NCBI GenBank assembly: GCA_016281125.1
Contig: JAEEIA010000053.1
Span: forward strand, 1 to 64,000
DNA: 64,000 bases
Direction: 5' to 3'
Origin: Oscillospiraceae bacterium
Lineage (GTDB): Bacteria > Bacillota > Clostridia > Oscillospirales > Ruminococcaceae
This document shows positions 12,917-62,799 of this stretch, in pieces (position 1 is the stretch's first letter; each line of letters opens with the position of its first letter). Both the position numbers and the translations under genes were made by a program. The notes below the pieces were generated by a model that saw only the letters and a program-made list of their open reading frames with translations, ran no database searches and had not been told where the DNA came from.

Positions 12917-12924
12917 ACATCATG

Positions 12925-12983
12925 TGCCTCCAGCGGATTCATCATGGGAGCGCCGCCCCATTTTGAATCCATCGGAGATGCCG
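12925..12983. repeat. Dispersed palindromic repeat, copy A (short, both arms)
   Basis: A compact inverted repeat. The right end reads AATCCATCGGAGATGCC; its reverse complement is the type-1 arm ATCTCCGATGGATT..AATGGGG shared with the copies at 38836, 49264, 54236 and 62630. The left end (CCTCCAGCGGATTCATCATGGG) is a diverged arm in opposite orientation. It lies between a terminator and the rrf2-like promoter. Confidence 0.7.
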
Positions 12984-38835: not shown

Positions 38836-38902
38836 GCCAAAGGGACACTGTCCCTTTGGTCAGATTTGGGCTGAAAGCCCATGATCAATCCATCGGAGAT
38901 AC
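38836..38902. repeat. Dispersed palindromic repeat, copy B (single type-1 arm)
   Basis: One arm in reverse orientation: the hairpin CCAAAGGGACA..TGTCCCTTTGG, the hairpin TTTGGGCTGAAAGCCCA and the terminal ATCAATCCATCGGAGATAC. A TATAAT (38905-38910) lies 3 bp beyond its end, 26 nt before the rodA start, so the repeat forms the upstream part of a possible promoter. Confidence 0.8.
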
Positions 38903-38936
38903 ATTATAATAAAAGAGAATACAGGAGAAAACAAAA

Positions 38937-49263: not shown

Positions 49264-49496
49264 GGTATCTCCGATGGATTGATCATGGGGCGCTGCCCCA
49301 AACCCCGCTTAAGGGCTGCTAGCCCTTAAGAATCCCATTCTGATGGAAATCGTGTATTTACTTTGTTTTTTCTTGTTTTTGGATTCCAAAGGGACAATGT
49401 CCCTTTGGCGGGTTTGGTGAGTTTGCGGTGCAAACTCATAGCAAAGCGGGCGAGAGCCCCATTATAAATCATCGCACAGCAATACCTTTTTCGACA
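49264..49496. repeat. Dispersed palindromic repeat, copy C (full, 233 bp, two arm types)
   Basis: The left end is a type-1 arm: GGTATCTCCGATGGATT, then hairpins GGGGCGCTGCCCC and TTAAGGGCTGCTAGCCCTTAA. The right half contains CCAAAGGGACAATGTCCCTTTGG and ends, in reverse complement, with a type-2 arm GGTATTGCTGTGCGATGATT. The ends are GGTATC and AATACC. It lies between the folD stop and its terminator, linked by TTTTTCGACAAGCTGAGG. No coding capacity. Confidence 0.85.
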
Positions 49497-54215: not shown

Positions 54216-54235
54216 TCGATAAAGAAGTATCTCCG

Positions 54236-54270
54236 ATGGATTGATAATGGGGCAGCGCCGCCATTCTCTT
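54236..54270. repeat. Dispersed palindromic repeat, copy D (partial type-1 arm)
   Basis: GTATCTCCGATGGATTGATAATGGGGC identifies a truncated type-1 arm. Read on the minus strand it is followed by TTCTTTATCGACAAACTGA and then the terminator at 54178-54215, the same order as in the copies at 49264 and 62630. Confidence 0.8.
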
Positions 54271-62629: not shown

Positions 62630-62799
62630 GGTATCGCTGCGCGATGATTTGTAATGAGGACGCTGCCCTCAAACTCCCGCTGGGGACGTATCCCCAGAAC
62701 CCATTTTGTATACTTCATTTCTCATATCGTAGGATTCCCAAGGGATTGATCCCTTTGGCAGGTTTGGGCGGAGCCCATTCTGAATCCATCGGAGATACC
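62630..62799. repeat. Dispersed palindromic repeat, copy E (full, 170 bp, two arm types)
   Basis: The left end is a type-2 arm (GGTATCGCTGCGCGATGATT..AATGAGG) followed by hairpin CTGGGGACGTATCCCCAG. The right end is a type-1 arm: reverse complement GGTATCTCCGATGGATTCAG..ATGGGC, with the hairpin CCAAGGGATTGATCCCTTTGG. Ends GGTATC...GATACC. The arm order is the reverse of copy C. It lies between the mreB stop and its terminator, with TTTATCGAAAAGCTGAGAG as junction. Confidence 0.88.

Follow-up and report, generated by a model that had tools for sequence, protein, structure and literature searches.

Five places in the window, the whole stretch of 64,000 nt that was analysed, carry copies of one palindromic repeat. 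The genome holding the window (G000) comprises 3.9 Mb in 98 contigs and is 95.5% complete; its named relatives suggest a place among Ruminococcus-like Oscillospiraceae. One full copy begins 2 nt behind the folD stop codon and another 3 nt behind that of mreB; a single half-element lies between a comM-like (Mg_chelatase) gene and the next gene, a remnant follows a terminator-like hairpin (by eye), and a minimal element makes up the fifth. An initial annotation of the window had proposed that these loci share arms, and direct reading together with a rescan found the repeat at all five. The loci are thus real, but two bounds needed correction: the copy at 49264 ends at 49486 rather than 49496, and that placed at 54236 starts at 54226. 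The features are:

49264-49486, + strand: full mosaic element, arm 1 with inverted arm 2; covariance match at 49264-49336
49264-49280, + strand: arm type 1, GGTATCTCCGATGGATT (direct reading, rescan)
49285-49299, + strand: GGGGC hairpin, ATGGGGCGCTGCCCC (direct reading)
49309-49329, + strand: hairpin TTAAGGG..CCCTTAA (rescan)
49337-49379, + strand: AT-rich core common to other full copies (reading and core comparison)
49386-49408, + strand: hairpin CCAAAGGG..CCCTTTGG (rescan)
49419-49438, + strand: long end-hairpin module GAGTTTGC..GCAAACTCA (rescan)
49467-49486, - strand: arm type 2 (0 mismatches)
62630-62799, + strand: full mosaic element, arm 2 with inverted arm 1 (reading, pair search, covariance model)
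62630-62649, + strand: arm type 2 of this copy (0 mismatches)
62737-62758, + strand: hairpin CCCAAGGG..CCCTTTGG of this copy (rescan)
62783-62799, - strand: arm type 1 of this copy (0-1 mismatch)
12924-12982, + strand: minimal element, arm type 3 (12924-12939) facing arm type 1 (12966-12982, - strand, 0-1 mismatch)
38837-38903, - strand: single half-element, hairpin at 38837-38859 and arm 1 at 38887-38903 (0-1 mismatch)
54226-54264, + strand: single arm-1 remnant with GGGGC hairpin (arm 1 at 54226-54242, 0-1 mismatch)

Both arm types described at the outset are present, but the locus at 12925 contains a third (GTGCCTCCAGCGGATT) that faces a type-1 arm; the arms are interchangeable as had been claimed, but the hairpins behind them also vary and recombine. 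The description of the repeats as intergenic and non-coding holds by reading in the window, whereas genome-wide 30 of 142 loci fall wholly within an ORF according to the crude longest-ORF script that supplied the gene calls for all position counts. Two of these 30, both in the window, look spurious by eye, an opposite-strand ORF fitting better, and some extend only into the last codons of a gene.

The unit of the family is a half-element of ~73 nt, composed of an arm, a GGGGC hairpin, the motif A(A/T)ACCCCGC, a second hairpin and GAATCCC. In a full copy of ~190 nt, two inverted halves surround a conserved AT-rich core of ~43 nt, such that GAATCCC or its equivalent leads into the core and the reverse of the same grammar follows. 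The first hairpin is ATGGGGC-loop-GCCCC, with the variants GAGGGC, GGGAC and GGGGGC (by reading); the second occurs as TTAAGGG..CCCTTAA, CCAAAGGG..CCCTTTGG or CTGGGGA..TCCCCAG; and some halves include the longer end hairpin GAGTTTGC..GCAAACTCA. A 113-stretch sample around listed arms (520 kb of the 3.9 Mb, chosen for holding arms) contains 148 type-1 and 69 type-2 arms at ≤3 mismatches and 57 inward pairs of <450 bp; by the arm definition used, facing pairs account for only 57 of 142 loci's worth of arms. These pairs fall into three main size classes. The smallest, 59-75 nt, consists mostly of two arms around a single GGGGC hairpin; the other two span 96-112 nt and 183-193 nt. Further pairs lie between the classes, and others are longer, up to 338 nt. 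By eye, a deletion from one AATGGGG repeat to another accounts for a 96-nt form. Among full copies of 180-235 nt the core was recovered in 19 of 28, with a mean pair score of 9.96 against -0.78 for shuffled letters, and its conservation indicates that at least some of the amplification was of the inverted dimer as a whole. The arms combine freely: the 57 full copies comprise 34 with unlike arms (26.5 expected), 19 of type 1/1 (22.7) and 4 of type 2/2 (7.7), and unlike arms have little in common beyond GGTAT. The flanks read AAA(G/A)(A/C)-GGTATC, so that the only preference outside the arms is A-rich, with AAA at -5 to -3, mostly G/A at -2 and then A/C at -1.

Several composite arrangements were also encountered. 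Two tandem 188-nt copies with the same left flank (L067:1501-1942, contig C36 of the same genome) constitute a segmental duplication of ~254 bp. Longer composites in this genome (L047, L046, L015 and others) incorporate another repeated block (AAAAGTTTCGGTCAAGCCTTTTCAAAGGCTTG..) that ends in the terminator-like hairpin GGGGACGCCCTGCGATAGAGGGCGTCCCC; this block is a second repeat family. In two genomes (L027 and L141), the GCTGCCCC hairpin is followed by foreign sequences that resemble each other (CTCAAAATGCAGAATC / CTCAAAACGCAGAATT), which suggests a common insertion point.

Copy number and range across genomes

The expectation that the repeats are abundant genome-wide proved correct. At ≤2 mismatches, the type-1 arm has 171 matches in G000 and the type-2 arm 67, with 0 for either reversed pattern. 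Far from being confined to the window, the half-elements number at least 150 in this genome (covariance model; all 150 scored candidates match). A search of relatives for the arms and with the covariance model, as had been suggested, finds copies in congeners, with matches for 133 of 150 scored candidates in G002 and 68 of 150 scored in G003. Arm 1 at one mismatch occurs in 22 of 30 genomes of the genus and in 1 of 31 other genomes, there in apparent coding sequence; genomes with 0 arm matches may still have half-element matches (G005, eight contigs, 87%). The family looks non-autonomous, in keeping with the initial annotation, and is common to congeners, its presence differing between them.

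An arm-1 search of 247 genomes across the taxonomic family was positive in 13, usually with one or two matches, and 11 of these 13 are of other genera. Four of the 11 (G202, G225, G245 and G292) were inspected, together with G048. By eye, G202 and G225, from two other genera, hold real relatives that follow the same grammar with other hairpin modules, and the arm-1 matches of G245, G292 and G048 look like coding sequence. In a collection of named genomes, 67 of the 80 matches listed are in records titled as Clostridia, for the most part Oscillospiraceae from rumen and gut; the remaining 13 correspond to the scatter that a 17-mer is expected to give in a collection of this kind. No account of the repeat family was found in the open-access journal literature searched; the arm and module sequences used as text queries returned 0 papers, and within the 64-kb window no match reached an Rfam gathering score. 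Our best reading is that the family is new, belongs to a single genus of Oscillospiraceae and is related to repeats in at least two further genera.

Ends, target sites and transposases

A classical MITE would have arisen by deletion from a DDE insertion sequence that ends in the inverted repeats GGTATC..GATACC, and would be moved in trans by that IS. Such an element would share much with these copies: inverted ends, a length of <500 bp, an AT-rich core, intergenic location and copy number match the description of prokaryotic MITEs in the available text of PMC10969869. However, the search for target duplications that the initial annotation had advised gave none: of the 57 full copies, 0 are immediately bordered by a direct repeat of ≥3 nt. 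Abutting matches of 2 nt are rarer than in shuffled pairs (2 versus 6.0), and with 3 nt of slack the direct-repeat mean is at chance (0.58 versus 0.54). This lack speaks against an ordinary DDE transposase, although target duplications fade with age (PMC10969869, available text). The unlike arms of most full copies also count against a MITE, as does the fact that no transposase was seen between the 167 listed arms (by eye; 71 of the 171 type-1 arms are outside the list and the genome is incomplete). On balance, we regard this origin as unlikely.

An autonomous transposon between arms was likewise sought among the 167 listed arms, and none was seen. One neighbouring inward pair 400-4500 bp apart occurs among them, with ORFs that are not transposase-like by eye, and the loci inspected include one 589-bp inward pair with one poor arm. 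At a contig end (L020:1501-1720), an ORF with the start MNSITYIGLDV lies shortly behind an element; this start recalls IS110 transposases.

Mobilisation of REP elements by a RAYT (a Y1 transposase), as in Proteobacteria, would account for hairpin units that occur singly and as inverted dimers, for 3' positions and for the lack of target duplication, all of which are as in REP/REPIN systems. A RAYT or IS200-like transposase was accordingly looked for, as had been advised, but Y1_Tnp (PF01797) has 0 matches in G000 (95.5% complete), in a search that was positive in 5 of 14 control genomes, and 0 in G002 and G003, the two other genomes searched with the covariance model. Y1_Tnp is found in 3 of the 30 genomes of the genus, G000 being one of the 30. 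In G001 a Y1_Tnp gene lies ~140 bp from element sequence; yet its 158-aa protein reads as an ordinary IS200 tnpA, Pfam Y1_Tnp alone being unable to separate IS200 from RAYT, and for a nearly identical protein in G022 the 5 kb inspected contain no arm. RAYT-driven spread appears highly improbable, although in a genome 95.5% complete such a gene may have been lost or may have gone unassembled. The G001 gene (L319:1-930, contig 240; IS200-type transposase) is flanked by a related repeat module to the left and by element sequence to the right.

Gene 3' ends, orthologous sites and hairpins

With respect to gene orientation, the 142 loci divide into 69 between tandem genes, 48 convergent, 11 divergent and 14 at an edge. 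Elements lie ≤30 nt from a 3' end in 58 of 137 cases and from a 5' start in 10 of 73 (p = 2e-5), and at 59 gene ends the repeat starts ≤15 nt from the crudely called stop codon. Stop-codon distances of ≤400 nt (n=153) include 46 at 0-8 nt, 31 at 45-74 nt and 52 at ≥90 nt. A terminator-like hairpin was found beyond 21 of the 59 stop-abutting copies (4 in the reversed-sequence control), and 18 of 47 other copies have one separating them from the stop (control 0). Copies with a detected terminator are thus immediately next to it, on one side or the other; for most copies none was detected nearby. Between divergent genes the elements are depleted to a borderline extent only (11 of 128 loci versus 35 of 221 gaps, p = 0.07, the gaps being drawn from element-bearing stretches).

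Closeness to stop codons is also what an ordinary conserved 3' UTR structure or terminator, vertically inherited and not mobile, would display. Congeners provide points on both sides, the relatives compared reaching no more than ~89% identity over the genes examined. The half-element downstream of comM is present in G000, G003 and G011 and degenerate in G002, and a downstream mreB element recurs at L152; the comM and mreB sites look old and kept. A sequence conserved in place among relatives, which had been named at the outset as an argument against mobility, is therefore found at some congener sites, but other congeners are empty or hold other modules there, so that these sites are not fixed 3' UTR. 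Specifically, the element is absent after comM in G001, G004, G007 and G016 and after mreB in G003, and downstream of folD element-like sequence was recognised by eye in just 2 of 18 congeners (L173, L185). The smc-ftsY spacer was compared in 28 of 30 genomes (G016 and G025 being without an smc/ftsY match), of which 27 are informative, G001 being uninformative. A half-element is clear in G000, G020, G024 and G029, possible in G027 and ambiguous in G004; in 11 of the 27 the spacer is only 28-52 nt long and element-free, and in the remaining genomes it contains genes or other sequence without a recognised arm. Moreover, arms and hairpins differ at the same site: downstream of mreB there is an arm-2 half in G000 versus an arm-1 half at L152, downstream of smc a CCAAAGG hairpin in G000 versus TTAAGGG in G020 and G024, and a third orthologous site differs in arm and length (L065 versus L169). 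Given, in addition, that the arm sequence is common to unrelated genes, we consider a purely vertical 3' UTR structure very unlikely. The pattern of presence and absence at smc-ftsY, comM, folD and mreB fits gain and loss together with vertical persistence at some sites. The empty orthologous sites that had been thought worth seeking are found in part: spacers are empty, gene-filled or occupied by other modules, but a clean empty site with both flanks intact was not found for a full copy in the congeners compared.

In one of eight genomes compared (G003), a YezG-like immunity gene (Pfam PF04634; L195:3065-3544) lies between comM and the half-element. This gene, and three ORFs in G020 that by eye are arranged alike in G024, adjoin a single half-element only; gene cassettes bounded by facing arms were considered, and no repeated pattern of them was seen.

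The second hairpin shows compensatory changes. In an alignment of 75 of 85 half-elements, 97.1% of its cells are paired versus 83.8% after shuffling of partners, and pairing drops to 20-61% when partners are slid. Cells changed on both sides number 110 versus 43.6 expected, with double changes in 5 of 10 pairs, two of which mark the TTAAGGG/CAAAGGG subtypes; further pair types are not above shuffles (7 versus 9.5). Since the ten half-elements omitted from this alignment were removed by eye (for odd length or sequence, one as a near-duplicate) and several have a decayed second hairpin, the figure of 97.1% flatters, and the 90.0% (75.5% shuffled) obtained for 102 segments of the same genome, an overlapping collection without omissions by eye, is fairer. 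In 45 segments from other genomes the values are 95.7% and 81.2%. Template switching could be an alternative source of hairpin complementarity, one that operates without selection. As RNA, the copy at 49264 is strongly structured (z = -4.9 versus shuffles) and that at 62630 weakly so (z = -1.66; 11 of 200 shuffles as good).

These positions suggest how copies may persist. They would settle where they are least harmful, right behind a stop codon or behind a terminator, and there would be transcribed as 3' UTR hairpins. Such hairpins could protect the 3' ends of mRNAs, cause ribosomes to stall where the stop codon is near, or reinforce termination, roles proposed here from position and by analogy with the E. 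coli REP literature (PMC12306157, available text). Diversity would arise through recombination between copies and through deletion between short repeats.

Overall reading and known repeat systems

We conclude that this is probably a mosaic REPIN/BIME-like family of palindromic repeats, made of ~73-nt half-elements that were at least partly amplified as inverted dimers and are placed at 3' flanks, with its driver not found. Of the two classes offered by the initial annotation, the REP/BIME-like one is upheld, and a strict MITE and mobilisation by a RAYT are not. The label 'mobile' rests on distribution, not on any observed transposition. As to the means of spread, a REPIN-like system propagated by neither a RAYT nor a DDE transposase, perhaps by a recombinase or by a replication or repair process whose substrate is single-stranded hairpins at the 3' ends of genes, is a tentative and still doubtful proposal. 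If true, such a system would work with ends that differ, insert right behind stop codons without duplicating the target and exchange hairpin modules between loci, each genus having its own module vocabulary under one common grammar.

The probable REPIN/BIME-like family adds a large mosaic repeat family in gut and rumen Oscillospiraceae for which the usual driver was not found. It offers a test bed for repeat spread without RAYTs and for the effect on expression of hairpins right after stop codons; its repeats are also strain-typing markers, and call for caution when such genomes are assembled and their genes called.

High-copy palindromic repeats have been documented extensively in Proteobacteria and streptococci. 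The present units are palindromic, extragenic (30 of 142 loci being inside crude ORF calls) and in high copy, and occur also as inverted dimers (the 57 inward pairs, the 183-193-nt class and the common core). In these respects, and in being short, single or paired, and placed at 3' ends, they resemble the REP/BIME/REPIN repeats of the GTAG and CGTC superfamilies; BIMEs and RAYTs are treated in PMC2817692 (available text). According to the available text of PMC3733652, REP repeats lie mostly between tandem and convergent genes and near ORF ends (<20 bp for most convergent ones), and CGTC repeats are without a dedicated transposase, as none was found for the present family. REPs are also targets for insertion sequences (PMC1525189, available text). 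Unlike REP/BIME/REPIN repeats, the present family has a half-unit of ~73 nt with at least two hairpins, swappable arms and hairpins, and a host among the Clostridia, and the consensus of 75 copies contains no unpaired GTAG or CGTC foot (by reading). Neither the main text of PMC3733652 nor that of PMC12306157 contains the terms Firmicutes, Clostridi- or Ruminococc-.

The pneumococcal BOX, RUP and SPRITE repeats are similar in being modular (BOX), intergenic, hairpin-forming, in excess between convergent genes and nearly confined to close species, as described in the available text of PMC3049150, where an IS link of RUP is not supported. By the same description, BOX and RUP differ in causing target duplications, of which none were seen here. 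MITEs share the inverted ends, size, intergenic location and AT-rich core (PMC10969869, available text), whereas the present family often has unlike arms, and neither a target duplication nor, among the listed arms, a partner IS was found. Although no GTAG/CGTC foot, no RAYT in G000 and no target duplication of the MITE kind were seen, the family behaves like REP/REPIN/BIME repeats and is modular like BOX.
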